A stretch of 64,000 bases of DNA from a virus. The notes beneath the pieces are model-generated. The model was given only the letters and a program-made list of their open reading frames with translations, made no database searches and was not told where the DNA came from. Where the stretch lies: the IMG/VR virus record IMGVR_UViG_3300021185_002167, positions 62,001-126,000 of that record; one strand, 5' to 3'. Position numbers and translations under genes: made by a program. This document shows, piece by piece, positions 1 to 62,129 of this stretch (positions are counted from its first letter, which is position 1; every line of letters starts with the position of its first letter).

Positions 1-1467
1 CCATTTCTAAAATACTTTCAGTCAGCTGTTAAATCATGTTCACAAGGTGGAGTAAGAGGTGGAGCAGCTACTGTATATCTACCTTTATGGCATTATGAAT
101 TTGAAGACTTAATCGTACTTAAAAACAATAAAGGTACTGATGAAACAAGAGTTCGTCACATGGATTATGCATTTCAATTTAACAAACTTATGTATGAAAG
201 ACTTTTATCTGGCGGGAACATAACATTTTTCGATCCAAATGATGTACCTGGTTTATATGATGCATTTTTTGTAGATCAAGACAAATTTCAAGAGTTATAC
301 GAAAAATACGAGAGAGCTCACAGTATAAGGAAAAAAACATTACCAGCTTTAGAAGTATTTCAATCATTCTTAACAGAAAGAAAAGATACTGGTAGGATAT
401 ATCTTATGAATGTAGACCATGCTAACGATCATGGTTCATTTATACCAGAGAAAGCTCCTATCAAAATGAGTAACCTATGTTGCGAAATTGATTTACCTAC
501 AACACCATTAGAAAGTAATGATGATACAGATGGAGAAATATCTCTTTGTACTTTATCAGCAATTAACTGGGGACTTATAAATGAAACACATGAATTTGAA
601 AAATATTGCGACCTTACAGTACGTGCTCTTAATGAGTTATTGGACTACCAAGGCTATCCAATCGAAGCAGCAAAACAAGGGACTCTTAATAGAAGACCTT
701 TGGGCGTTGGAATTATCAATCTTGCCTATTTTCTAGCTAAAAGAGGACTTAAATATGACGAATCAGCATACGAAGTTGTTGATGAATATGCTGAAGCTTG
801 GTCATATTATTTGTTAAAAAGTTCAGCAAACCTTGCAGCTGAAAGAGGAAAATTGATATATAATACAGATACGAAATATTCTAAAGGAATACTTCCTATC
901 GATACTTATAAGAGAGCGATAGATAATCTTATAGTGCATAGAGAGCGTTTACCGTGGGAAGAGTTAAGAGAACAACTCAGAGAAACTGGTATTAGAAACT
1001 CTACGCTAATGGCCTTGATGCCCGCTGAAACAAGCGCTCAGATAAGTAATAGTACGAATGGTATTGAACCACCAAGAGCATTGGTATCGTACAAACAAAG
1101 TAAAGATGGAGTGATGGCTCAGGTTGTGCCTGGATATCATCATCTTAAAAATAAATATGATTTACTCTGGGATCAAAAGTCTCCGGAGGGATATCTTGCA
1201 ATATGTGGTATATTACAAAAATATATTGACCAAGGAATCTCTGTAAATACATCTTATAATCCTGAACACTTTGAGGATAATAAGGTACCTATGTCAGTAA
1301 TGATAAAGGATTTAGTAACATCATATAAGTATGGATTAAAGCAATTATATTACTTCAACACATTTGATGGAGCTGGAGAAATGACTGATGGAGAAACTCA
1401 TCATGCCTACGACGGCAAGAGCGAAACATTTGTTGATGATGAGGATTGCGATTCATGCAAGATTTAA
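1..1467 (+). CDS. nrdA: Ribonucleoside-diphosphate reductase class Ia alpha subunit (3' part)
   Basis: The reading frame is open from base 1, so the 5' end lies outside the window. The protein reduces ribonucleoside diphosphates to deoxy forms for phage DNA synthesis, working with NrdB. Visible family signatures are SCSQGGVRGGAAT near the left edge, VRHMDYAFQFN, the active-site loop SNLCCEIDLP (the catalytic thiyl Cys codon is 478-480, followed by Glu two residues later), the partner redox Cys in EISLCTLSA (codon 547-549), and a C-terminal swinging arm ending CDSCKI. The C-terminal pair is C-x2-C, whereas E. coli NrdA has C-x4-C. A second Cys (481-483) directly follows the catalytic one. The gene opens a cluster with nrdB, a cytochrome c and a glutaredoxin. 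Identity is certain; only the missing N-terminus (ATP-cone region) is unknown. Confidence 0.97.
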   Translation, partial: PFLKYFQSAVKSCSQGGVRGGAATVYLPLWHYEFEDLIVLKNNKGTDETRVRHMDYAFQFNKLMYERLLSGGNITFFDPNDVPGLYDAFFVDQDKFQELYEKYERAHSIRKKTLPALEVFQSFLTERKDTGRIYLMNVDHANDHGSFIPEKAPIKMSNLCCEIDLPTTPLESNDDTDGEISLCTLSAINWGLINETHEFEKYCDLTVRALNELLDYQGYPIEAAKQGTLNRRPLGVGIINLAYFLAKRGLKYDESAYEVVDEYAEAWSYYLLKSSANLAAERGKLIYNTDTKYSKGILPIDTYKRAIDNLIVHRERLPWEELREQLRETGIRNSTLMALMPAETSAQISNSTNGIEPPRALVSYKQSKDGVMAQVVPGYHHLKNKYDLLWDQKSPEGYLAICGILQKYIDQGISVNTSYNPEHFEDNKVPMSVMIKDLVTSYKYGLKQLYYFNTFDGAGEMTDGETHHAYDGKSETFVDDEDCDSCKI

Positions 1468-1688
1468 AGAAAAAAATAAACGACAGAATGGATATCCTAC
1501 AAGATTGGATGGAGCAGGATTACCATCTTAAAAGACCTGACGTTGTTTATGAACATACATTAACAGTAAGTAAATTCTGGCCTGTATTATCTGAAGAGGA
1601 TAGAGATTATATACAAGGCGTACAATTTGCAATTGATACAAAATCGAACATATCTTGGAGACCGAATGCCGATACTACAGAAAAATAA
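1455..1688 (+). CDS. Hypothetical protein between nrdA and nrdB
   Basis: This 77-residue reading frame is wedged between nrdA and nrdB and overlaps both, which is typical of a real phage gene in a compact operon. I chose ATG 1455 because GAGG at 1441-1444 lies 10 nt upstream; an in-frame TTG at 1446 would sit too close to that site. The product is acidic/aromatic (DRMDILQDWMEQDYHLKRPD near the N-terminus, LSEEDRDYIQ in the middle) with no Cys and no membrane segment. I do not recognise a family. Position suggests a role with ribonucleotide reductase, but that is only context. Confidence 0.6.
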   Translation: MQDLKKKINDRMDILQDWMEQDYHLKRPDVVYEHTLTVSKFWPVLSEEDRDYIQGVQFAIDTKSNISWRPNADTTEK

Positions 1689-2739
1689 AAAATCACATCT
1701 AGAACGTAACATGTTTTTTGATAATGGTGTTGACATCGCAAGATACGATCAAGTCAAATATCCACAATTAGAAAAAATAACAGACAAACAACTTGGTTTC
1801 TTTTGGAGACCAGAAGAAGTAGATGTATCAAAAGATAAGAAAGACTTTTATGAGCTTTCAGAGCATGAGCAACATATCTTTACATCTAATCTTAAAAGAC
1901 AGATTGTTTTAGATAGTGTACAAGGACGAGCTCCTAATATGGCATTTCTTCCTATATGTTCTTTACCAGAAGTAGAGAACTGGGTAGAGACATGGTCATT
2001 CTTCGAAACAATTCACAGTAGAAGTTATACACATATTATAAGAAATATATATCCTAATCCATCAGATGTATTTGACCACATGTTAGATATTAAAGAGATA
2101 ACAACTTGTGGAAAGGATATATCAAAATACTATGATGAGTTAATAGCTGATAATAATTACGCCACAAATAAAATGGACCATAAGAGGTCATTATATATGT
2201 GCATGCTTTCAGCTAATGCCCTTGAAGGAATCAGATTTTATGTATCCTTCGCCTGCAGTTGGGCATTCGCTGAATTAAAGAAGATGGAAGGTAACGCAAA
2301 AATTATTAAGTTTATCGCAAGAGATGAAAATACACATCTTGCTGGTACAACTGTTATGATAAGAAACCTTATTAAAGAAGACAAAGATATTGCAAAAATC
2401 GCTAAGAAATATGAAGATGATGCAGTCAAACTTTTTGTAGATGTTATTGAACAAGAAAAAGAATGGGCAAGATACTTATTCAAAGATGGTTCAATGATTG
2501 GTTTAAATGAAACCATATTAGAAAATTATGTAGAATGGATAGGATGTAAACGAATGAGAGCATTAGGTCTACCTTGTCCATATACAGTTCCACAAATGAA
2601 TCCATTACCTTGGACAGAGAAATGGATATCAGGTGGTAGCGTGCAGGTAGCTCCTCAAGAGACAGAGATAAGTTCTTATGTCGTAGGTGGAGTAAAACAA
2701 GATGTAGATAATAACACATTAGTAGGATTAAGTTTATGA
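1666..2739 (+). CDS. nrdB: Ribonucleoside-diphosphate reductase class Ia beta subunit
   Basis: This is the radical-generating di-iron subunit that partners NrdA. With ATG 1666 as start the protein has 357 residues. GGAG at 1657-1660 sits 5 nt before this ATG; the upstream in-frame TTG at 1627 has no such support. Ligand and radical residues are in place: Asp83 (VLDSVQGR), Glu114 and His117 with the radical Tyr121 (ETIHSRSYTH), a later Glu in ALEGIRFY, and Glu/His in RDENTHL. The Tyr at the radical position argues for class Ia rather than the Tyr-less class Ic. The C-terminal tail (NNTLVGLSL) is the peptide that docks on NrdA. The stop codon overlaps the next start as ATGA, implying translational coupling to the cytochrome gene. 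Confidence 0.97.
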   Translation: MPILQKNKKSHLERNMFFDNGVDIARYDQVKYPQLEKITDKQLGFFWRPEEVDVSKDKKDFYELSEHEQHIFTSNLKRQIVLDSVQGRAPNMAFLPICSLPEVENWVETWSFFETIHSRSYTHIIRNIYPNPSDVFDHMLDIKEITTCGKDISKYYDELIADNNYATNKMDHKRSLYMCMLSANALEGIRFYVSFACSWAFAELKKMEGNAKIIKFIARDENTHLAGTTVMIRNLIKEDKDIAKIAKKYEDDAVKLFVDVIEQEKEWARYLFKDGSMIGLNETILENYVEWIGCKRMRALGLPCPYTVPQMNPLPWTEKWISGGSVQVAPQETEISSYVVGGVKQDVDNNTLVGLSL

Positions 2740-3179
2740 GAGAATTAGGAAAGGTTTTATTAGGTTGCTCAGCAATCGTAATATTTTTTATGATAATGAT
2801 TATGCCAAACATGGCGTATAGTGGATATAGTAGTAGCAGTTCGTGTATACATGAATGTTATGAAGAGTATGTAGCATTAAATGGTACACCATCTGAAATA
2901 GAACAGAAAAAGAAAGCATTAGCAGCTGAAGATGAATTTAGTTCTATTAAAGGATTATGGGCTGGATGCGCAGCATGTCACGGAGCAGAAGGACAAGGTA
3001 ATGGACCTTTCCCTAAACTTGCAGGACAGAGTTCAGATTATATCGTAAGTAGATTATATGCATATCAAAATAGAGAACAAGTTGGTCCTATGAGTTCAAC
3101 AATGTGGGCTCAAGCTGGTATGTTATCTGATAGCGATATAGATACAATAGGTAAATTTATTGAGGAGACAATGAAATGA
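2736..3179 (+). CDS. Exported class I c-type cytochrome
   Basis: The 147-residue product starts with a hydrophobic export signal or anchor (residues about 6-28) followed by a Ser-rich stretch with C37-x3-C41. The C-terminal half is a single class I cytochrome c domain: heme-attachment motif C78-A-A-C81-H82, then GAEGQGNGPFPKLAGQ, a helix (YIVSRLYAYQ), a likely distal Met in VGPMSSTM (Met119 or Met123) and the closing LSDSDIDTIGKFIEE helix typical of c5/c553/c4-type cytochromes. Such proteins carry single electrons on the periplasmic side; heme would have to be attached by the host's cytochrome c maturation system. The gene overlaps nrdB by ATGA and glutaredoxin by ATGA, so it belongs to the operon. 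It is unlikely to work directly with cytoplasmic ribonucleotide reductase. The partner is unknown; supporting host respiration during infection is an inference. Confidence 0.88.
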   Translation: MRELGKVLLGCSAIVIFFMIMIMPNMAYSGYSSSSSCIHECYEEYVALNGTPSEIEQKKKALAAEDEFSSIKGLWAGCAACHGAEGQGNGPFPKLAGQSSDYIVSRLYAYQNREQVGPMSSTMWAQAGMLSDSDIDTIGKFIEETMK

Positions 3180-3403
3180 TACAGATATACGGAAAAGAAC
3201 AATGTCCATATTGCGATATGGCAAAAGCTTTATGTGAACAGAAAGGAATGGATTACGAATATAAACAATACGGAATTGATTTTGATAGAAGTTACATGAC
3301 TGAGATATTTCCAGGCGCAAGAACGTTTCCTCAAATCATTGTTGATGGTAGTAAGATTGGTGGATATACAGAACTTAAAGAACTTACGGACTTAGAGCTA
3401 TGA
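3176..3403 (+). CDS. Glutaredoxin
   Basis: This is a 75-residue glutaredoxin with dithiol active site C10-P-Y-C13 near the N-terminus, the conserved cis-Pro segment TFPQIIVDG and the GGYTEL helix cap. It would pass electrons from glutathione to the C-terminal cysteines of NrdA (CDSC) in the cytoplasm, as phage NrdC-type proteins do. Its length is the family minimum. The start overlaps the cytochrome stop (ATGA), and its own stop overlaps the next ATG at 3400. Confidence 0.95.
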   Translation: MIQIYGKEQCPYCDMAKALCEQKGMDYEYKQYGIDFDRSYMTEIFPGARTFPQIIVDGSKIGGYTELKELTDLEL

Positions 3404-3528
3404 TTCTAGAATGCGAGCACTGCTATTCACGTATCGTAATTAAACCTGATGAACCAATCAAAATAAATTTTTGCCCTCATTGCGGCGAAGCTACTGAAGA
3501 TTCAGACGAACTGGACTTTAATGAATAA
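3400..3528 (+). CDS. Small zinc-ribbon protein
   Basis: This 42-residue ORF starts inside the glutaredoxin stop (ATGA) and ends 8 nt into the next gene. Two Cys pairs, C5-x2-C8 (CEHC) and C25-x2-C28 (CPHCGE), separated by a beta-type stretch (SRIVIKPDEPIKINF), form a textbook one-zinc ribbon, followed by an acidic tail. Small stand-alone zinc ribbons in phages often bind nucleic acid or RNA polymerase. No specific role can be assigned. Confidence 0.7.
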   Translation: MILECEHCYSRIVIKPDEPIKINFCPHCGEATEDSDELDFNE

Positions 3529-7067: not shown

Positions 7068-7759
7068 TGCAACAAAAAAGACCAAGCAAATTAAGACTCG
7101 AGCATATAGCTAAATATAAACCATTGACTCAAAGTCAAGAAAAAGTATATGATTCATGGAATAATAATCAGAATCTTATATTGAGCGGATCAGCTGGTAC
7201 TGGTAAAACATTTTTATCTTTATACTTTGGTATCAGTGCAGCATTAGATAAGAATGAAAAACAAGAGAAAGTAGTAGTTGTAAGAAGCGCTGTTCCTACA
7301 AGAGATATGGGATTCTTACCTGGTACAATAGAAGAAAAAGAAGATGCTTACAAAGCGCCATATACAGCAATAGTTAATGAGTTATTCAGAGATGGAGAAG
7401 CATATAAAAAGATGGAACAGTTTAAGAACATTGAATTCTTAACAACATCTTTTATACGTGGTATTACAATACATAACGCAGTAGTTATTATTGACGAGGC
7501 TCAAAACTGTAACTTTCATGAACTTTGTAGTGTGATAACTCGACTTGGAGATAATTGTAGATTAATTATATCGGGTGATTATTATCAAAGCGATTTCGTT
7601 AAACAGAATGATAAAAGCGGTTTATATAACTTTATAAATATATTAAATAATATGAAGAGCTTTGACCACATAGAATTTGAATGGAAAGATATAGTACGTA
7701 GTGGTTTAGTAAGAGACTTTATAATGACAAAAGAAATGTTAGAGAACAATAAACTATGA
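7067..7759 (+). CDS. phoH: PhoH-like ATPase
   Basis: This 230-residue P-loop ATPase of the PhoH family has Walker A GSAGTGKT at residues 41-48, Walker B with VVIIDEAQN in the middle, the sensor segment LIISGDYYQSDF and a C-terminal arginine-finger region (DIVRSGLVRDFI). PhoH-family proteins are frequent in marine phages. The bacterial family is phosphate-regulated and partly RNA-associated, but the phage role is undefined. No phosphate box was recognised upstream. It overlaps both neighbours, so it is part of the 5929 operon. Confidence 0.94.
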   Translation: MQQKRPSKLRLEHIAKYKPLTQSQEKVYDSWNNNQNLILSGSAGTGKTFLSLYFGISAALDKNEKQEKVVVVRSAVPTRDMGFLPGTIEEKEDAYKAPYTAIVNELFRDGEAYKKMEQFKNIEFLTTSFIRGITIHNAVVIIDEAQNCNFHELCSVITRLGDNCRLIISGDYYQSDFVKQNDKSGLYNFINILNNMKSFDHIEFEWKDIVRSGLVRDFIMTKEMLENNKL

Positions 7760-7938
7760 TAAAAGAAGAATATAGAGACGCTACTCCAGAAGAAGTTGAT
7801 GAATGGCAAGACACAGATTATTTTATGAAAGGTGACTTTGACCCATTACAACTCTTTGTAGTTATACCAACAATTGTACAAATATTCATGTTTGGATCGA
7901 TGCTTTTAGTATTTAAACTCAACGATGCATATTTTTAA
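7756..7938 (+). CDS. Small single-pass membrane protein
   Basis: This 60-residue protein has an acidic N-terminal half (REEYRDATPEEVDEW type composition) and one hydrophobic segment near residues 31-53 (QLFVVIPTIVQIFMFGSMLL). It overlaps phoH by ATGA and the next membrane ORF by 14 nt. Function unknown. Confidence 0.65.
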   Translation: MIKEEYRDATPEEVDEWQDTDYFMKGDFDPLQLFVVIPTIVQIFMFGSMLLVFKLNDAYF

Positions 7939-12635: not shown

Positions 12636-12905
12636 ATGGAACTGGAAATAGCTGATATAGTAGGTAAGTATGGATTTCCAACTGTCATGGTTGTAGGTTT
12701 AGGATATTTTGTATATTTTGTTTATAACTTTATACAAGAACATTTAGACCCTGCAACAGAAAAAATGCATTTTCAATTAATAAAAGTGATTGACCAAATG
12801 AGAATGTTAGACCAAGACCTTATAAGATTACAGCAAAAAGTAGATACAGTATTGGAATATAAAGAAAATGAAAAGAAAAAACAAGATAGAAAAGATGAAG
12901 TATAA
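12636..12905 (+). CDS. Small membrane protein, copy 2 of a paralogous pair
   Basis: This 89-residue relative of the preceding protein has a membrane segment at about 13-34 (YGFPTVMVVGLGYFVYFVYN) and a helical tail with LIKVIDQMRMLDQDLIRLQ that ends in Lys/Glu/Asp. Both members start with an acidic amphipathic stretch and share a G-(F/L)-P motif at the membrane entry. Located directly before csgF, they may be part of the same export or anchoring system. That is inference from position. Confidence 0.7.
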   Translation: MELEIADIVGKYGFPTVMVVGLGYFVYFVYNFIQEHLDPATEKMHFQLIKVIDQMRMLDQDLIRLQQKVDTVLEYKENEKKKQDRKDEV

Positions 12906-13407
12906 AGCAGAAGCATTTACCTTAATGGGAATATTTATTTTGTCGATATCAAGTCTTGGTGTAAGTGCTGCAGAGATAGTACATAAATTTAAAAATCCTT
13001 CCTTTAGTGGAATAGGTACTGCTTCTCATTATCTTACTGTAGAGAATCAAGAATTCTCTCGTAAGAAATCTATAGAAGAAGCATTAGCTGCAGCAGAAAA
13101 AGCAGCGCAAAGAGAAGCTGAGAATACTACTCTTGCTAAGTTTATAAGAAACTTGGAAAGTAGAATATATGCTCAAATGTCAAAACAACTTGTTGAGAGT
13201 ATGTTTCAAAATGATGGCGCAGTAAGATTTGGTTCCTTTACATTAGAAGGATCAGTCGTTACTTATGAAGTGATAACCAATGAAGATGGTTCAGAATATA
13301 TTAAAATGTCTATAATCGATGCAAATGGAACTGAAACTGTTATTCAAATTCCTATAGGAACAGGTTACTTCGGGAGCGATTATGGTACGTCAGCTGACGG
13401 CGGTTAG
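12868..13407 (+). CDS. csgF: Curli assembly factor CsgF
   Basis: The protein has up to 179 residues. A signal peptide (KAEAFTLMGIFILSISSLG, cleavage after SAA or VSA) is followed by the CsgF signature HKFKNPSFSGIG, matching FRNPNFGG of E. coli CsgF, then a helical Ala/Glu-rich neck and a long segment (LAKFIRNLESRIYAQMSKQL) that aligns with FTQAIQSQILGGLL. The C-terminus carries strands ending IQIPIG. In E. coli, CsgF plugs into the CsgG pore and anchors the curli nucleator at the surface. ATG 12895 gives a tidier signal peptide and is an alternative start; neither start has a clear ribosome site. It overlaps csgG by 26 nt. Confidence 0.88.
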   Translation: MKRKNKIEKMKYKAEAFTLMGIFILSISSLGVSAAEIVHKFKNPSFSGIGTASHYLTVENQEFSRKKSIEEALAAAEKAAQREAENTTLAKFIRNLESRIYAQMSKQLVESMFQNDGAVRFGSFTLEGSVVTYEVITNEDGSEYIKMSIIDANGTETVIQIPIGTGYFGSDYGTSADGG

Positions 13408-14299
13408 TCTTTCAATAGCCCTATTATCTAGTTGCGCAGCTGTACCTAGATACTCAGAAAATCCTCAGGATTGTAATAAAGATACATGGGGCGAACAGTA
13501 TGACCATGACCTATGGAACTATGCAAAAGCTTCAGGAAGAACATTTGAAAGAGCAATACCGTTTATATGTGTTGACGCACCTGAAGTTGTTAAGTTACCA
13601 TCATTTATAAAACTACTACAACTTCCACCAGCTGAATCTAAACCAGTAGTTGCAGTTTACCAATTTGCAGATAAAACTGGTCAAAGAAAAGCAAGAGAAG
13701 GTATAGCCGATTTTTCTACAGCAGTTACTCAAGGTAGTACTGAAATGTTAATTGATGCTCTTAAAAGCGCAGGTAATGGTAGTTGGTTTAGAGTTGTAGA
13801 GAGACAAGGATTAGATAACCTTGTAAGAGAAAGACAAATTATTAGAAGTGCTCGTCAAGATATTGCAAAAGCAAAAGGCGAAGAAGAAGCACAAGGTATA
13901 CAACCACTATTATTTGCTGGAATGATAATAGAAGGTGGTATAATAGGTTATGATACAAACATCCTATCCGGTGGCCGTGGAGCTAGAACGTTAGGTATAG
14001 GAATAAGCAGACAATATCGTAAAGATGTTGTAACAGTTTCAATTAGAGCAGTATCTGTTCTAACTGGAGAAGTTTTATTAAACGTCCAAAGTAAGAAAAC
14101 TATCTTATCTTATGGAAGTGGCGGTGATATTTTTCGATTTATCGAAGAAGGTACACAATTGATAGAGTATGAAGACGGAGTGGGTAAAAATGAGTCAGTG
14201 ACATACGCAGTACGAACAGCCATCGAGGCCGGAGTACTGGAATTAATCAACCAAGGTCATGATAGAAGATTTTGGAAAATAGAAGGAAAAGAAACATGA
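13382..14299 (+). CDS. csgG: Curli secretion channel CsgG (outer-membrane lipoprotein)
   Basis: This 305-residue close relative of E. coli CsgG carries a lipobox ending LSSC (Cys18). Shared landmarks with E. coli include KTGQ-type turn after VVAVYQFAD, FSTAVTQGSTEML, VVERQGLDNLVRERQIIR, MIIEGGIIGYDTN, SGGRGARTLGIG, KTILSYGS, FRFIE, and a C-terminal AIEAGVLELINQGHDR. CsgG forms a nonameric pore that exports curlin subunits across the outer membrane. About 40 extra residues lie between the lipobox and the core. In the constriction loop Phe111 is kept, but the neighbouring Asn is Asp110 and the Tyr position is charged. Start ATG 13382 overlaps csgF; the stop overlaps the next gene as ATGA. Confidence 0.95.
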   Translation: MVRQLTAVSLSIALLSSCAAVPRYSENPQDCNKDTWGEQYDHDLWNYAKASGRTFERAIPFICVDAPEVVKLPSFIKLLQLPPAESKPVVAVYQFADKTGQRKAREGIADFSTAVTQGSTEMLIDALKSAGNGSWFRVVERQGLDNLVRERQIIRSARQDIAKAKGEEEAQGIQPLLFAGMIIEGGIIGYDTNILSGGRGARTLGIGISRQYRKDVVTVSIRAVSVLTGEVLLNVQSKKTILSYGSGGDIFRFIEEGTQLIEYEDGVGKNESVTYAVRTAIEAGVLELINQGHDRRFWKIEGKET

Positions 14300-15021
14300 T
14301 AAAATATATTTTAGGCCTAAGTTTATTTTTTAGTTTAAACTCTTTCGCAGCAGCATCTGATGATAATGAAATTAATATTGCTCAAGTAGGTGATACACTT
14401 ACTTTGTATATTGACCAAGTAGGATACGGTAACAAAATAGGACTTGATAACTTTGACAGTAGTTCAAGTGCTATGCCGATTACTGGGTCATCATTAACTT
14501 TCAATATCGACCAAATAGGTAATGAAAACTTACTCTTTGGTAAACTCACAGCAGATTCTTCATCTTACACTTTAGAGTGGAATGGTGATAATAATGTTTG
14601 GGATTGGATGATTGGAGAAACTGGTTCAGCTGATAGTTCAAACTATTTAGTTGATATAACTGGTGACTCTAATACTATGGACCTAGACCAAGGTTCATTA
14701 TTTAGTGCGGAAAGATTAAATTTTGATTTAACAGTTTTAGGTAGTTCGAACGTATTTGATGTTGACATAGAAACTGATGATGTTATATGGAACTTTGATG
14801 TTACAGGTAGCACAAATAATATTAATACTTTACAAAAAGATGGATACTATAATGAGATTAATTTTACTCTTGATGGTTCCGGAGCTGATGTAGACATTAA
14901 CCAGATATCTGGTACGTGTCCTACAGGAGTTTCAAGTTGTAAGGGTATTATAACACTTGATGTGGATAGTGAAAATGCAACAATTCAAATCAATCAAAAA
15001 GATTCAGCTAACGATAGTTAA
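14296..15021 (+). CDS. Curlin-repeat amyloid-type subunit, copy 1
   Basis: This 241-residue secreted protein has a signal peptide (IKYILGLSLFFSLNSFAAA) and degenerate curlin repeats of the type N-x-(I/V)-x-Q-x-G-x2-N: INIAQVGDTLTL, YIDQVGYGNKI, FNIDQIGNENL, MDLDQGS, VDINQISG, IQINQK. Asn, Asp, Gln and Gly are strongly enriched, as in CsgA/CsgB. Near the C-terminus there is a pair C-x6-C (CPTGVSSC) before the final strand. It is likely the substrate of CsgG. ATG 14296 is used because it gives an intact signal peptide and ATGA coupling to csgG. Repeats are less regular than in enterobacterial CsgA. Confidence 0.83.
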   Translation: MIKYILGLSLFFSLNSFAAASDDNEINIAQVGDTLTLYIDQVGYGNKIGLDNFDSSSSAMPITGSSLTFNIDQIGNENLLFGKLTADSSSYTLEWNGDNNVWDWMIGETGSADSSNYLVDITGDSNTMDLDQGSLFSAERLNFDLTVLGSSNVFDVDIETDDVIWNFDVTGSTNNINTLQKDGYYNEINFTLDGSGADVDINQISGTCPTGVSSCKGIITLDVDSENATIQINQKDSANDS

Positions 15022-16132
15022 TCTTATACTTGTAGGGTTTGTTTCGGCAGACCCTATAGGTTCTATTGTAGAGCAGTCCGGTTCTACGCAAATTAAAAGA
15101 CAACAAGAACAAATAAAAATAACTGATGAGGTACAACCTGATATTCAGTTAAATGATGTAGCTGAAACGGCGAATGGTAAACTAAAAATAAAGTTTTTAG
15201 ATGACGCTCAATTAGATATCAAAGAACATAGTGAAGTGTTAATTGATGAAATATATTATGACCCAGACCCATCACTCTCTAAAATGTCAATGAAGTTTAC
15301 TATGGGAACAGCAAGATTTGCTTCAGGTTCTCTTGGATTAGTAAACAAAGCGAATATAGATATACAAACACCAACAGCCACGATAGGTATTCGTGGTACA
15401 GATTTTACAACAACAATTGATGAACTTGGAAGGTCATTAATTATGTTACTTCCTGATGTAAATGGCGATCCATCAGGAGAGATTACAGTTACAAACGAAG
15501 CTGGAGTTATAACTCTTAATCAAGCTTATCAAGCAACAATGGTATCTTCGTTAAATACAATGCCAACTAAACCTGTTACTATCGGTGGTATTACACCTTC
15601 AATGATTGATAATATGTTTATTGTTAATCCACCAAAAGAAGTAAAAGAAGCTATAGAAGAACAGGTAAAGGATGATTCAAATAAAGACCAAGGATTACTT
15701 GATATAGATTACTTAGAATATAACGAATTAGAAAAAGACTTTGATGATTATGCTAACGATCCTGATTATGACGCTCGAAATGGTAGGATTGATGTTGATT
15801 TTTTAGCTGGTGAATTTTTACCAGACCTTTTAGATGTTGTAGAAGAATTAATTAAAACAACTGTTGTACTTGGAGATAAACAAGGAGCAACTGGTGGAAC
15901 AGCAGGATTTAAACTTGAAGGTGCTCAACTTGGACTGAATAAGGATAGTCAATATAATATATTCTTAGAAGATTCAGGTATTGTATTCTTTAGAGATATT
16001 AATGGTGTCATAAATCTTATATTCGAAGCAGGAGCTTCAGTTAATCTTAATACTGTTGTTGATGGTTATGAAGGAACAATCACAATGAATGGTGGAGACG
16101 ATATAAATATTTACATAAGGCAGGTAAACTAA
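14975..16132 (+). CDS. Secreted FecR-domain protein
   Basis: With ATG 14975 the protein has 385 residues: signal peptide (KKIQLTIVNLILVGFVSA), a FecR domain over roughly residues 30-170 (GSIVEQSGSTQIKR, VAETANGKLKIKFLD, HSEVLIDEIYYD, TPTATIGIRGTDFTTTI), an acidic linker and a beta-rich C-terminal part ending NGGDDINIYIRQVN. Stand-alone secreted FecR proteins often neighbour CHASE2 cyclases in bacteria and are thought to be periplasmic sensory or surface components. Here it sits between two curlin-repeat genes, and the last strand (INIYIRQ) itself looks like a curlin strand. It overlaps the preceding gene by 47 nt. The precise role is unknown. Confidence 0.85.
   Translation: MQQFKSIKKIQLTIVNLILVGFVSADPIGSIVEQSGSTQIKRQQEQIKITDEVQPDIQLNDVAETANGKLKIKFLDDAQLDIKEHSEVLIDEIYYDPDPSLSKMSMKFTMGTARFASGSLGLVNKANIDIQTPTATIGIRGTDFTTTIDELGRSLIMLLPDVNGDPSGEITVTNEAGVITLNQAYQATMVSSLNTMPTKPVTIGGITPSMIDNMFIVNPPKEVKEAIEEQVKDDSNKDQGLLDIDYLEYNELEKDFDDYANDPDYDARNGRIDVDFLAGEFLPDLLDVVEELIKTTVVLGDKQGATGGTAGFKLEGAQLGLNKDSQYNIFLEDSGIVFFRDINGVINLIFEAGASVNLNTVVDGYEGTITMNGGDDINIYIRQVN
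16102..16109 (+). promoter_or_regulatory. Possible internal late promoter box TATAAATA
   Basis: An exact late box lies in the last codons of the FecR gene, 23 nt before the 23-residue ORF and 91 nt before the second curlin gene. It could boost expression of that subunit. Chance occurrence is possible in AT-rich coding sequence. Confidence 0.4.
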
Positions 16133-16203
16133 TGAAAGAAAAAAGAAAAACTCTTGTATCAATTTGGACAAATGGTAAAAAAACAGTGAGAGTATACTCA
16201 TGA
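16132..16203 (+). CDS. Possible 23-residue basic peptide
   Basis: This short frame starts at the FecR stop (TAATG overlap) and ends by ATGA overlap with the next gene. The peptide is basic (MKEKRKTLVSIWTNGKKTVR). The double overlap suggests translation, perhaps only to couple the two flanking genes. Confidence 0.4.
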   Translation: MKEKRKTLVSIWTNGKKTVRVYS

Positions 16204-16847
16204 AAATGATAGCATATATATGGCTTATCTCATTTTGTGCTCTTTCATTTGCAGGAGATAACCACGTACATATAGAACAAGTTGGTGGTGGAGATAATGT
16301 TGAGATTGATGTTACTCAAATAGGATATGATAATGAAATTAATTTTTCATTCGATCATCAAAATAATGTGTTTAACTTAAATCAAACTGGAAGTGGTAAC
16401 TATATTGGTTGGGTTTCCTATTGGGGTTCAGGTAAATCATGGGGTGGTGATGTTGATGGTACTAATAATAGCGAATCAGTTATGCAATTAAACGGTGCGA
16501 CTTATGGTAGACATATATGGGGAAATAGTAATGACGTTGATATATATCAGAATGGAACACATACTCATAACCTAGACTTACATGCTAATTCTGTAGACCA
16601 TGACCTATGGCAAGAAGGAAGTGGTAGTCATTATAATCATACTTATTTTTATGGCTCATCATCTTATTCAGATACAAATATAATGCAAAAAGGAACTGGT
16701 TCTCATAACTCTCAAATCACATTACAAGGTTCATATGCAACTACATTAAATATATTACAACAAGGATCGATTAATCAAGCTTATTCATTAACTCAAAATT
16801 GTCAAACAGTAGGCGGTTGTACAGTATCAATTACTCAAGGAAATTAG
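16200..16847 (+). CDS. Curlin-repeat amyloid-type subunit, copy 2
   Basis: This 215-residue secreted protein has a signal peptide (MIAYIWLISFCALSFAG) and curlin-type repeats: VHIEQVGGGDNV, DVTQIGYDNEI, FNLNQTGSGNYI, VDIYQNGTHTHN, NIMQKGTGSHNS, NILQQGSINQAY, SLTQN. The spacing of Gln-x-Gly-x2-Asn units is about 20-25 residues, as in CsgA. It is His-, Tyr- and Trp-rich in the middle. The C-terminus has C-x5-C (CQTVGGC) directly before a final strand TVSITQGN, paralleling the first curlin-like protein. It is the best candidate major subunit of the cassette. Confidence 0.86.
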   Translation: MKMIAYIWLISFCALSFAGDNHVHIEQVGGGDNVEIDVTQIGYDNEINFSFDHQNNVFNLNQTGSGNYIGWVSYWGSGKSWGGDVDGTNNSESVMQLNGATYGRHIWGNSNDVDIYQNGTHTHNLDLHANSVDHDLWQEGSGSHYNHTYFYGSSSYSDTNIMQKGTGSHNSQITLQGSYATTLNILQQGSINQAYSLTQNCQTVGGCTVSITQGN

Positions 16848-16870: not shown

Positions 16871-18709
16871 ATGAAATATTTAACTTCAATATGGACAACT
16901 ATTATACTTGGTATTACACTTTTAGGTGTAAGAATTCTAGACCCTCAGTTATTAGAACAGTTTAGGCTCAGCATATTCGATCAGTATATACAATCTCTTC
17001 CAGTAGAACATTCGAACGATATAGTGTTGATTAATATATCCGAGTCTTCACTCGAAGCTTATGGTCAATACCCTTGGCCACGTCAGAATCACGCAGCAGT
17101 GATTTCTGATTTAAGGAACTCGAATGCTGGCATGATAGGGTTTACTATAATGTTTCCAGAAGAAGATCGTTTCGGAGGTGACACTATCTTTGCGTCTTGG
17201 ATAAAAGATAATGGTATTATTCTTGCACAAGATGCGGATCAAAATGGGAGAAGTTCTAAAGCACCTTATGTAGGGTATGCAACATTTGGTTATTCAGGAG
17301 ATCCATTAGATCTTACATATCGATATAAAGGACTGATTACAAATATAGAAGAATTAGAGAAACATGCATGGGGAGTAGGTCTATTAAATGGAGCTCCTGA
17401 AGTAGATAATCTTACAAGAAGAATACCATTAATGTCTCAAGTTAACGGAGATTTATATCCATCATTTGCATTAGAAACTGTAAGAGCAATGCAAGATAAG
17501 AAATCGTATACAATAAAGTTAAATGAAGCTGGAATTGAAAGTATAGTATTAAGACCTTTTATAATACCAACAGATGAGAGAGGTAGTATATGGTTAAAAT
17601 GGAATACACACTTTGAATCAATTGATTATGATGGACAACCATTACCAGATTTAAAAGGAAAGACAGCAATTATAGGAGTTACTGCAAAAGGTATTGTTCC
17701 TCAAGTATCTACTCCAGCTGGGTTATTATATCCACATCAAATACAAGCAAATGCATTACAGACAATAATATCTGATAATCCTATATCACGGCCTCAATGG
17801 ACTTATCTTGCTGAACTTGCAATGATTCTGATTGGTTCTCTTCTGATTGTATTAACTGTATACTATCTTCCGATATGGGTCGGTGCTGTATCCTTCGTCG
17901 GCTCTGCAATCGCTGTAAGCTTTGCTTCTTATTACGCCTGGTACGAATTTTCTATACTCCTCGATTTATCAGCTACTCTAATAATATATATACTTTTACT
18001 CACCTCATCGAGTTTCAATAATTTTTATAAACAATTCGTATTAAGACAACAAGTAAAGAAACAATTTGGTACATATGTATCTCCTGACTTAGTTAAACAA
18101 TTACAAAAAGACCCATCACTCTTACGATTAGGTGGAGAAAGAAAAGAGATGACCTTTATGTTTATGGATATATGTGGATTCACTCCTATATCAGAATATT
18201 ATAAAAACAAAGATGACCCAGAAGGACTTGTAATTCTTATAAATAATTATTTAGATACTATGACAAAAATCGTTTTAAAGAACGGTGGAACTATAGATAA
18301 ATTTATGGGTGATTGTATCATGGCATTTTGGAATGCTCCACTTGATTGTGAAGACCATGCCTTTAAAGCTGTACAAACATCGATCGAAATATGCGAGGCA
18401 GCTGATGAACTTATACAACAACTTGAAGAGCAAGGTTTACCTAGGATTGATATTGGCATTGGTATCAACACCGGGACTTGTATTGTCGGAAATATGGGTT
18501 CAGAATCTAGATTTGACTATTCCGTCATTGGAGATGCCGTTAACCTCGGGGCTAGACTCGAAGGCCAAACAAGAAATTATGATGGGGTTCGAGTGTTGTT
18601 GGGACCGGAAACTTATAGAAGCTGTAAAGACCGAAGAGTATTTACACAAATCGATAGAATCCGTGTTAAAGGAAAATCCGAGAAAGTTACAATATACTCA
18701 CCAATCTAG
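16871..18709 (+). CDS. CHASE2-domain class III adenylate cyclase
   Basis: This 612-residue membrane enzyme comprises an N-terminal transmembrane helix (about 6-22), a periplasmic CHASE2 sensor (about 30-305, with NISESSLEAYGQYPWPR and GKTAIIGVTAKGI), three further transmembrane helices (about 311-380) and a cytoplasmic class III cyclase domain (about 424-612). Catalytic residues are complete: metal Asp433 (FMDICGFT) and Asp481 (KFMGDCIMAF), adenine-selecting Lys477 and Asp549 (FDYSVIGDAVN), and transition-state Asn558 and Arg562 (VNLGARLE). It should make cAMP from ATP in response to a periplasmic cue. It follows the second curlin-like gene by 23 nt. A phage-encoded cyclase is unusual; coupling to the FecR and curli genes is suggested by the layout. 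Confidence 0.94.
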   Translation: MKYLTSIWTTIILGITLLGVRILDPQLLEQFRLSIFDQYIQSLPVEHSNDIVLINISESSLEAYGQYPWPRQNHAAVISDLRNSNAGMIGFTIMFPEEDRFGGDTIFASWIKDNGIILAQDADQNGRSSKAPYVGYATFGYSGDPLDLTYRYKGLITNIEELEKHAWGVGLLNGAPEVDNLTRRIPLMSQVNGDLYPSFALETVRAMQDKKSYTIKLNEAGIESIVLRPFIIPTDERGSIWLKWNTHFESIDYDGQPLPDLKGKTAIIGVTAKGIVPQVSTPAGLLYPHQIQANALQTIISDNPISRPQWTYLAELAMILIGSLLIVLTVYYLPIWVGAVSFVGSAIAVSFASYYAWYEFSILLDLSATLIIYILLLTSSSFNNFYKQFVLRQQVKKQFGTYVSPDLVKQLQKDPSLLRLGGERKEMTFMFMDICGFTPISEYYKNKDDPEGLVILINNYLDTMTKIVLKNGGTIDKFMGDCIMAFWNAPLDCEDHAFKAVQTSIEICEAADELIQQLEEQGLPRIDIGIGINTGTCIVGNMGSESRFDYSVIGDAVNLGARLEGQTRNYDGVRVLLGPETYRSCKDRRVFTQIDRIRVKGKSEKVTIYSPI

Positions 18710-59294: not shown

Positions 59295-62129
59295 ATGGCA
59301 TTAACAAAAATCACATCAGACGTTATAGGAACTGGAGCAATTGAATCAACTCATATTGCATCAGGAGCTATCTCATCTTCTCATTTAACAGGTATTACTA
59401 CAGATAATGTATCTGAAGGTAGTTCTAATACCTATTTTACAAATGCAAGAGCAAGAGCCTCAGTATCTGTTACTGGTGGTAACTTAACTTATGATAATTC
59501 AACAGGTGTATTACAATTAACTAATGCTGCTATTGAAGGTGCTATTTCTACACTCGGTGATATATCAACTGGTAATATTACAACAACAGGATATCTAAGA
59601 GGTCCTGCAACATTTACAATTGACCCAGCAGCTCATGGCAATAATACTGGAACACTTGTGATTGCCGGTAATCTTCAAGTTGATGGTACAACAACCACAA
59701 TTAATTCTACTACAATGACAGTAGATGATTTAAATCTTACATTAGCATCAGGAGCAGCTAATGCAGCTGCAGCAAACGGAGCAGGACTTACAGTTGATGG
59801 TGCAAGTGCTACTATTATTTACGATGGTACAAACGATGAGTGGGACTTTAACAAAGGTATACATCTTACAACTCCAGCTCTTACAACTGCAAGAATTACT
59901 GCAGAAGAGAGCTCTGGCGCAACAACTCAATTAAGCTCAGGCGGTACTACCGGATATGTAGGAACAATATCAAATCATGACTTATTAATACGAACTAATT
60001 CTTTCGAAAGAATTCGTATAGAAAATAGTGGTGCTATTTTACTAAACGATAATTTATTGTCTTGGTACAGTCAATCAAATACTACGTATAACAATGCTAA
60101 TTTAAGAGCAGAAGATTTTTACTTTAAAAATGCTGGTAATACTACAAGGATGTTTATTGATGGAAGTACAGGTAGAATTGGAATAGGTTCCAATAACACA
60201 TCTCCTGATCAACTATTAGATATAAGTGGATCAGGAGAAGGTCTAAATTTACAAGGTGGTAATAATCGTATATATTTTTCAAATCATAGAGCTCTAGAAG
60301 GTGCAGCTAACGGGTCGTTACTTCAAGTTGGAGAAGGTTTTACAGATATTTCTTTAGAAAGTGATGTTGGTATCGCAACAAGTTCTCCAGATTTTCCTTT
60401 AGATGTAAACGGAAATATTCAAAGTAGAGGAATATTAAATTTTGATAACGAAGCAAAAAGTCATCTTTATTGTAATTTTGTAAATGGTGTTGCAAATGCT
60501 AATGTTGATATCTATATAGGAAATGTTTCTATATGGGGATATATTGAAGTAGAAATTACTGGTACTTATTCTAATCAAAATACTGCGGGAAAACTAACAA
60601 AAGTATATGCAGTTGGTACTAACCCAAACAATGCTATTTATTTAAATAAAGGTCAAGTAACTTCAACTTTAGGAACAATAAAAGATAATATTGCTTTAGG
60701 AGACTTTTATTGGGATTCCACTAATTCAAGATATGCTATAAGAGTGTCTCATATAGTTTCGACTGGAAATGACTATACTATTAAAGTTAGATTCTTTACC
60801 CATCAAGGAAGTAGTATATATGGTGCAAGAGCGGCAATGGCTAATTTAGGTGTAACTAGCGTCTATACTGCTACTGCTCTCGGTAGAAATTACATTAATA
60901 TGACTGAAGGTCCACTTGATAGAGTAGGAATTGGAGAAACCGATCCTGATAGGCCTTTACATGTAAACAGTGGTGGCTCAAATGTAGTAGCTAAGTTTGA
61001 AAGTACAGATTCTGTTGCAGCTATTGAATTTACTGATCCAGCCGGATCTGCTGAAATAGGAAATGAAGGAAATGACATAAGACTTATGCCAGCTGGTTCA
61101 ACAAGAGCATATGTCACAACTAGTGGAAATATGCATCTTCAATCTGAATCACAATGTAGATTAGTATTAGGAAGCACTGGAGGAGTCAGTATAAATAATG
61201 CCACAAACTGGATTCGTGGTAGTGGTGGTTCTTTACAGTTTAATGCTGCTTCTTCAGGATATACTTGGGAATCTGGCGGTTCTACAAGATTAGCTATGTC
61301 TTCTACAGGAGTTATAACACAAACAACTGCAGGAACTTCTGATAGTTATGATATGATACTTAGGTCTACAGATAGTGGAGACCCAGGTTTAGCAATTGTG
61401 AGAGATAGCGCTGTTGGTTTTGGTATTGCAGTAAGAGCTTCGAGTGATGATTATGCAGATCTGCAGGTAAATAGTGGTGGTCAACCAGGCTATACTGAAG
61501 CAGGTGTGTTAAGATTGTATCATAATAACAATGTTGCAATGCCAGGAAACCACTCTTATAACGTAGATGATGGTTTGTTTTTACTTTCAGATACTGGAAG
61601 AATATTTCAAACGTTTGCATACAACTCAGCTGGGGCTGAAGTATTTTTACAAAACAATAGAAACGTTAATGGACAAGTAGCTGCTTTCCAATATAGGATT
61701 AATAATAGTTCGCAGAGTGGTGGTACAATATATGCAGGAACTAATGGATATACTGGAGGAAATTTCTCGGATTATAGATTAAAAAATAATGTTGCCAATT
61801 TAACTGGTTCATTAGATAAAATAAATGCATTAAGAGTTGTAAGTTATAATCATGTTGATACTCCAGATTTAACAGAGCTTGGTGTGATTGCTCATGAAAT
61901 TCAAGAAGTATTTCCTGAATTTGTTAGAGGAGAAAAAGATGCCGTTTGGACTCAAGAAGATATTGATAATTATGAAGGACAATTACCTGATGTAGAAGCT
62001 GGAGATATAAAAGCTCAACAAGTTGACTACTTTAGTAAAGAATGGACATCACACTTTATAAAAGCAATACAAGAATTAAAAGCAGAAAATGAAGTACTTA
62101 AAGCAAGAATAGAAGCATTAGAAGGATAA
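59295..62129 (+). CDS. Tail fibre protein 5 with S74 chaperone C-terminus
   Basis: This is a 944-residue fibre: attachment motif ITSDVIGTGAIESTHIASGA, body with YFTNARARASVSVTGGNLTY and GIGT-type repeats (GRIGIGSNNTSPDQLLDI, DRVGIGETDPDRPLHV), a middle beta section and a C-terminal S74 chaperone (NFSDYRLKNNVANLTGSLDK, LTELGVIAHEIQEVFPEFVR) with a closing coiled coil. The chaperone differs from that of fibre 1 in having an acidic insertion (DAVWTQEDIDNYEGQ). Confidence 0.9.
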   Translation: MALTKITSDVIGTGAIESTHIASGAISSSHLTGITTDNVSEGSSNTYFTNARARASVSVTGGNLTYDNSTGVLQLTNAAIEGAISTLGDISTGNITTTGYLRGPATFTIDPAAHGNNTGTLVIAGNLQVDGTTTTINSTTMTVDDLNLTLASGAANAAAANGAGLTVDGASATIIYDGTNDEWDFNKGIHLTTPALTTARITAEESSGATTQLSSGGTTGYVGTISNHDLLIRTNSFERIRIENSGAILLNDNLLSWYSQSNTTYNNANLRAEDFYFKNAGNTTRMFIDGSTGRIGIGSNNTSPDQLLDISGSGEGLNLQGGNNRIYFSNHRALEGAANGSLLQVGEGFTDISLESDVGIATSSPDFPLDVNGNIQSRGILNFDNEAKSHLYCNFVNGVANANVDIYIGNVSIWGYIEVEITGTYSNQNTAGKLTKVYAVGTNPNNAIYLNKGQVTSTLGTIKDNIALGDFYWDSTNSRYAIRVSHIVSTGNDYTIKVRFFTHQGSSIYGARAAMANLGVTSVYTATALGRNYINMTEGPLDRVGIGETDPDRPLHVNSGGSNVVAKFESTDSVAAIEFTDPAGSAEIGNEGNDIRLMPAGSTRAYVTTSGNMHLQSESQCRLVLGSTGGVSINNATNWIRGSGGSLQFNAASSGYTWESGGSTRLAMSSTGVITQTTAGTSDSYDMILRSTDSGDPGLAIVRDSAVGFGIAVRASSDDYADLQVNSGGQPGYTEAGVLRLYHNNNVAMPGNHSYNVDDGLFLLSDTGRIFQTFAYNSAGAEVFLQNNRNVNGQVAAFQYRINNSSQSGGTIYAGTNGYTGGNFSDYRLKNNVANLTGSLDKINALRVVSYNHVDTPDLTELGVIAHEIQEVFPEFVRGEKDAVWTQEDIDNYEGQLPDVEAGDIKAQQVDYFSKEWTSHFIKAIQELKAENEVLKARIEALEG

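Follow-up and report, generated by a model that had tools for sequence, protein, structure and literature searches.

A gene for a c-type cytochrome lies inside the ribonucleotide reductase (RNR) operon of the phage DNA analysed here, a 64-kb stretch (the window; positions 62,001 to 126,000) of the 128,059-base virus record IMGVR_UViG_3300021185_002167, which carries T4-type genes. The gene (2736..3179, plus strand) opens with ATG and encodes 147 amino acids, and its identity as a class I (c4/c5/c554-like) cytochrome c, probably anchored in the membrane, is well supported by family profiles and a structural model. As is to be expected of an auxiliary metabolic gene, it stands on true phage DNA, with T4-type genes along the 128-kb record. 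The explanation that best accommodates the observations overall, and which we regard as fairly probable, is that the product is an anchored cytochrome that would pass electrons from the host bc1 complex to an oxidase during infection.

The cytochrome gene and its viral relatives

The sequence-only reading of this DNA had proposed a CAACH heme site, a distal-Met region and a C-terminal helix of the c5/c553 kind, and all three hold. The haem c attachment site (Cys78, Cys81 and His82; 2967..2981, plus strand), read in the sequence and invariant in relatives, is the sole CxxCH among the six-frame stop-to-stop frames of at least 80 amino acids in the window. Met123 (3102..3104, plus strand), the candidate distal ligand, aligns to the ‘VM’ of cytochrome c554 and is invariant among relatives, whereas Met119 varies; a helix is predicted at residues 132–145. 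The proposed profile search against cytochrome c families gave a significant match to Cytochrom_C (PF00034, E 5.2e-9), at 37.7 bits against a curated cut-off of 21.3. Among PDB sequences, cytochrome c554 is the best match (E 4e-15), with c552 and c4 weaker, and the haem domain is 27–39% identical to these c554/c552/c4-c5 relatives. The NCBIfam models of named cytochromes (ccoP, c550, SoxX) did not reach their cut-offs, the best scoring 17.3 bits against 179.95, and a PHROGs search gave just a weak match over 19 residues (E 0.021).

The AlphaFold2 model (mean pLDDT 84.4) consists of a helix at residues 2–26, a poorly predicted link, two helices at 37–49 and 52–65, and the cytochrome domain. When residues 67–147 were compared with known structures, the Z score was 14.0 for cytochrome c546/556 (root-mean-square deviation 1.5 over 81 residues), 12.5 each for c552 and c554, and 11.7 for the c4 subunit of the P. 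aeruginosa bc1-cbb3 supercomplex (8smr), comparisons that bear on 75–81 residues of the haem domain and barely cover the N-terminal 65. A viral structure library gave nothing under E 0.001, a result with no bearing on whether the fold is absent there. The claimed export signal is present insofar as the model places a hydrophobic helix, anchor or signal, at the N terminus (residues 2–26; 2739..2813, plus strand; peak 19-residue hydropathy 2.42 at residue 4), but it is better called a membrane anchor, as in most relatives, by reading, no AxA-like site follows. In a few of them (L017, L032, L052 and L078) the N terminus reads instead as a cleavable signal peptide. Between the anchor and the haem domain, residues 30–65 constitute a feature beyond the earlier reading. 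Here Cys37-x3-Cys41 (2844..2858, plus strand) is conserved where a predicted helix begins, and the pair is kept in bacterial homologues.

Relatives of the cytochrome are encoded in 396 stretches of the viral contigs scanned; together with the family scores and the conserved T4-type context, these exclude a chance motif or contamination. Across a 45-row alignment C37, C41, C78, C81, H82 and M123 are invariant (45/45), the CxxxC pair being conserved to the same degree as the haem cysteines. A second set holds 77 distinct phage proteins from 115 loci, many viral loci being near-copies; it was picked by the CxxxC motif, which makes the invariance of C37 and C41 there true by construction and leaves the 45-row alignment as the unforced evidence for that pair. 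Four loci without the motif (L003, L083, L277 and L278) were left out of it. Loss of the ligands in close relatives, which would count against a working cytochrome, was not seen: His and Met are kept in all 77 phage proteins, and Cys78, Cys81, His82 and Met123 are invariant in these 77, in 13 of 13 bacterial rows (12 distinct) and in 6 of 6 outgroup rows. One of the omitted loci, L277, encodes at 15495–15815 another kind of phage cytochrome c, 106 amino acids long, soluble-looking and without CxxxC, on a 170-kb contig that also carries an alternative oxidase (AOX) gene. L082, L083 and L084 are phage contigs inside metagenome-assembled genomes (MAGs) labelled Planctomycetaceae and Synechococcus, in which they are probably mis-binned.

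The gene is intact and, as its substitution pattern shows, under purifying selection, with dN/dS of 0.07–0.38 in eight pairs of relatives. Five of the eight pairs have a haem domain with few nonsynonymous differences (pN 0.00–0.02, against synonymous pS 0.04–0.35) and a higher pN, 0.07–0.22, in the N-terminal part; of the other three, two are reversed (haem pN 0.10–0.15) and one has no clear difference. When 50,697 deposited phage records were searched by tblastn, from which records very near the window's own were possibly excluded, neither the whole protein (E up to 1) nor the haem domain (E up to 10) found a match.

Operon setting and respiratory neighbours

The window opens within nrdA, whose C-terminal part (1..1467, plus strand; PF02867, E 2.6e-82) continues a gene that begins upstream, the upstream part being found in L293. 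It is followed by nrdB, for the class Ia RNR small subunit (1666..2739, plus strand; PF00268, E 3.3e-45; phrog_86, E 3.5e-142), whose start at 1666 was picked by likeness to relatives, and on the far side of the cytochrome gene stands glutaredoxin (3176..3403, plus strand; PF00462, E 6.2e-12). An ATGA at 2736–2739 is common to the nrdB stop and the cytochrome start, and another at 3176–3179 to the cytochrome stop and the glutaredoxin start (gap −4 in both), so the 4-nt overlap behind the proposed translational coupling is found on both sides. Counts for cytochrome loci were made on 80 of the 396 stretches (L001–L080): in 49 the end of nrdB lies at most 500 nt upstream, in 49 glutaredoxin begins where the cytochrome gene ends (46 of them with the 4-nt overlap), and in 46 both genes are adjacent. 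The 31 loci that have no nrdB ending within this distance include some in which the contig ends, and in several loci the cytochrome lies among other phage genes. The operon position between nrdB and glutaredoxin is conserved. Between glutaredoxin and a SegE-type GIY-YIG endonuclease, the window also encodes a 42-residue zinc-ribbon-like protein (3400–3528), and small zinc-ribbon-like open reading frames can be read 3′ of glutaredoxin in L067, L062 and L204 as well.

The surroundings of the gene in related phages suggest a wider respiratory context. A small membrane protein with one helix and no Pfam match lies at most 300 nt from the cytochrome in 47 of the 80 loci. In the window, a tentative partner of this kind is encoded at 7756..7938 (plus strand; hydropathy 2.27; no Pfam match), which is linked by tblastn via L042 and L060 and by eye resembles the one-helix protein of L247. 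Upstream of the cytochrome, 17 loci (L011, L019, L074 and 14 others) encode another small membrane protein, about 57 amino acids long and likewise without a Pfam match. AOX is encoded within about 5 kb of the cytochrome in L062 (Pfam AOX, 8e-70), L084, L030 and L037. A search of 12 cytochrome contigs with PF01786 gave no AOX (0/12), with the positive control equally silent.

Approached from the other side, a scan for AOX found 187 relatives in marine viral contigs, 80 of which (L200–L279) were kept for counting. The available DNA holds a cytochrome in 29 of these 80 loci, 19 of the 29 being distinct, and the two genes are at most 60 nt apart in 12 loci and at most 1.5 kb apart in 24. The motifs that we take to mark the diiron site of AOX are complete in 79 of the 80, the remaining one being cut at a contig end. 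Against deposited phages at 1e-5, phage AOX has one match only, a ‘hypothetical protein’ of Phage C48C1. Gene orders are varied: L230 reads nrdB ... cytochrome, AOX, glutaredoxin, with 4-nt overlaps, and L232 and L269 read AOX, cytochrome, one-helix protein. Pseudoazurin (Copper-bind, 4e-15) occurs in 10 viral loci, 5 of them with a cytochrome, and on the 250-kb contig L247 (6041–8594) a cytochrome, an exported EF-hand-like protein, pseudoazurin, a one-helix protein, ferredoxin and AOX fall within 2.6 kb, the small EF-hand-like protein and the ferredoxin being identified by eye. In L042 (5457–7614) ferritin-like, cysteine desulfurase and IscU-like genes, assigned by Pfam, lie directly 3′ of the cytochrome.

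Phage background and bacterial homologues

By gp6 (about 40% identity), the nearest isolates to the window phage infect OM43 and SAR11. These pelagimyophages and the methylophage Melnitz are, like the window phage, T4-like and have the curli block in common with it; they differ in that the cytochrome matched nothing in phage records, and the word ‘cytochrome’ is absent from the main text of PMC7029224 and PMC9004378. The window's curli block (12868–16847) encodes CsgF-like, CsgG-like, two curlin-repeat-like and FecR-like proteins in the order of the Melnitz annotation, and the portions of PMC9004378 and PMC7029224 consulted state that csgA and csgB are missing. It is followed at 16871–18709 by a large membrane protein, taken for an adenylate/guanylate cyclase on reading and on its place in comparison with the Melnitz annotation.

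Outside the viruses, the nearest bacterial kin found are gammaproteobacterial. In the MAG L085 there is a gene for a protein that shares the anchor, a CTGECYE segment and the haem domain and is 36% identical to that of the window. Among 194 genomes of its order, 43 matched at 1e-12 and 13 have the CxGECY form, one of them cut at a contig end; in a sample of the phylum, matches at 1e-20 occurred in 4 of 398 genomes, the one in the centre genome alone covering the N-terminal region. These orphan cytochromes (L085 and L166–L178; transmembrane helix, CxGECY and CxxCH) share the entire architecture of the window protein, anchor and CxxxC included, but they are cellular and outside any operon, and the phage clade is separate from them. 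In the phylogeny that the sequence-only reading had called for (96 rows, of which 77 phage, 13 bacterial and 6 outgroup, over 147 columns only), 76 of the 77 phage rows form one clade (support 100/96) beside the bacterial clade, while L260 groups with the bacterial rows, its branch being long and weakly supported. The history that appears to fit this tree best is a single ancient acquisition and later spread among phages, perhaps joined by a further acquisition.

Proposed role, rival explanations and significance

Under the proposal that the cytochrome links bc1 to an oxidase, the protein would be made early in infection together with the genes for deoxynucleotide synthesis and exported by Sec, and the host cytochrome c maturation system would add the haem. 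Because haem of the c type is attached outside the cytoplasm, the cytochrome should lie on the outward side of the inner membrane, where the N-terminal helix would hold it. From there it would link the host's bc1 complex to a cytochrome c oxidase of the cbb3 or aa3 type by carrying electrons between them, and respiratory flux would be kept or raised while host protein synthesis is shut off, providing ATP and precursors for DNA replication; in related phages AOX, pseudoazurin, ferredoxin and the one-helix protein may widen the cytochrome into a respiratory module. The closest structural kin donate to oxidases and the c4 of the bc1-cbb3 supercomplex is among the best matches, and it is therefore this role that we propose. 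That the protein is an electron carrier for respiration is something we infer, and the linkage to AOX, pseudoazurin and ferredoxin in other phages strengthens it, while the linkage to RNR is best read as one of timing and demand rather than of direct chemistry.

Several observations weigh against this proposal. Neither AOX nor pseudoazurin nor any Isc gene was seen in the 128-kb record of the window phage itself, and long AOX records searched whole have a cytochrome in 9 of 20 and none in 11, so that any respiratory module is a loose one. AOX, moreover, draws on quinol and bypasses cytochrome c, and its linkage may thus mean a shared setting rather than a shared path. Finally, in 12 neighbourhoods of the bacterial homologues there is no respiratory cluster, and the gene stands alone.

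Among other explanations, the cytochrome might, with AOX, drain quinol or cytochrome pools away from proton pumping, whether for timing lysis via the membrane potential, sustaining catabolism or excluding other phages. AOX is indeed non-pumping, and a cytochrome lies at most 1.5 kb away in the 24 AOX loci noted above; but 77 of the 80 cytochrome loci have no AOX within up to about 5 kb a side, and cytochrome c normally supplies pumping oxidases, so we consider such diversion improbable. Marginally less probable again is that the protein donates to a periplasmic reductase that is not an oxidase (cytochrome c peroxidase or an enzyme reducing nitrogen oxides, for example), so as to remove oxidants or to exploit an alternative acceptor. 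Cytochromes like c4 and c552 do have several partners, and pseudoazurin, known to donate to copper nitrite reductase, adjoins the cytochrome in some phages; no such reductase was seen beside the cytochrome in the loci read, however, and the AOX linkage points to O2.

It is unlikely, too, that the CxxxC segment is a copper-binding or disulfide-forming element for which the haem domain acts as redox partner: the conservation of C37 and C41, equal to that of the haem cysteines and extending to bacterial homologues, speaks for such metal or thiol handling, yet the haem domain is complete by itself, and L277 supplies a form that has only that domain. As for direct service to RNR, by way of electrons or of oxygen control for the NrdB radical, the conserved overlap with nrdB and glutaredoxin is what recommends it, and it seems very unlikely given that RNR lies inside and the haem would be attached across the membrane from it, that 31 loci have no nrdB close upstream (some by contig end) and that several cytochromes are among other phage genes. 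The bc1-to-oxidase role remains the one that we favour. A broader reading, whose chances we judge to be even, is that marine T4-like phages, probably of heterotrophs, possess a modular set of respiratory tools (anchored cytochrome c, the new one-helix partner protein, AOX, pseudoazurin and ferredoxin) that would re-plumb the host's oxygen-respiring chain while infection proceeds and be regulated with nucleotide synthesis, as a match, for respiration, to the photosynthesis genes of cyanophages.

It is informative to set the protein beside known systems. It has in common with the c554/c552/c4-c5 donors of gammaproteobacterial oxidases (2zzs, 1cno, 8yts, 6q2u and 8smr) a class I fold, CxxCH and a Met ligand, but it is phage-encoded, has a single haem, carries the anchor and CxxxC segment and is set in an RNR operon. 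Cyanophages with plastocyanin (petE) and PTOX likewise bear an electron carrier and a quinol oxidase; theirs, however, serve photosynthetic hosts, the carrier is a copper protein, and the phage AOX described here matches no cyanophage record at 1e-5. According to a proposal that a review repeats in the part consulted (PMC10452541), cytochrome oxidase receives electrons from cyanophage plastocyanin. The sequence-only reading had expected a new kind of metabolic gene outside the photosynthetic cyanophages, a claim that needs narrowing. Passages of PMC8190135 describe phage SoxD, also a phage gene from a family with cytochrome c motifs, although it belongs to sulfur oxidation and two SoxD contigs are without the motifs; viral cbb3-oxidase reads appear in the sections seen of PMC3474794, and an extract of PMC8115048 reports no cytochromes in certain denitrification phages. 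In the literature searched, with subscription papers, preprints and supplementary tables outside its scope, we saw no c-type cytochrome like this one described from a phage.

We read the cytochrome and its neighbours as a possible module for respiratory electron transfer, which would be to these phages what plastocyanin and PTOX are to cyanophages. That phages steer photosynthetic electron flow is textbook knowledge; for phage control of aerobic respiration in non-photosynthetic hosts we know of little genetic support. With a cytochrome c that is conserved in phages and tied to genes for DNA precursors and, in relatives, to AOX and a copper carrier, the control of host respiration by phages becomes directly testable. 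The finding suggests that such viruses adjust the respiration of the cells they infect, which would have consequences for estimates of carbon respiration in the surface ocean.
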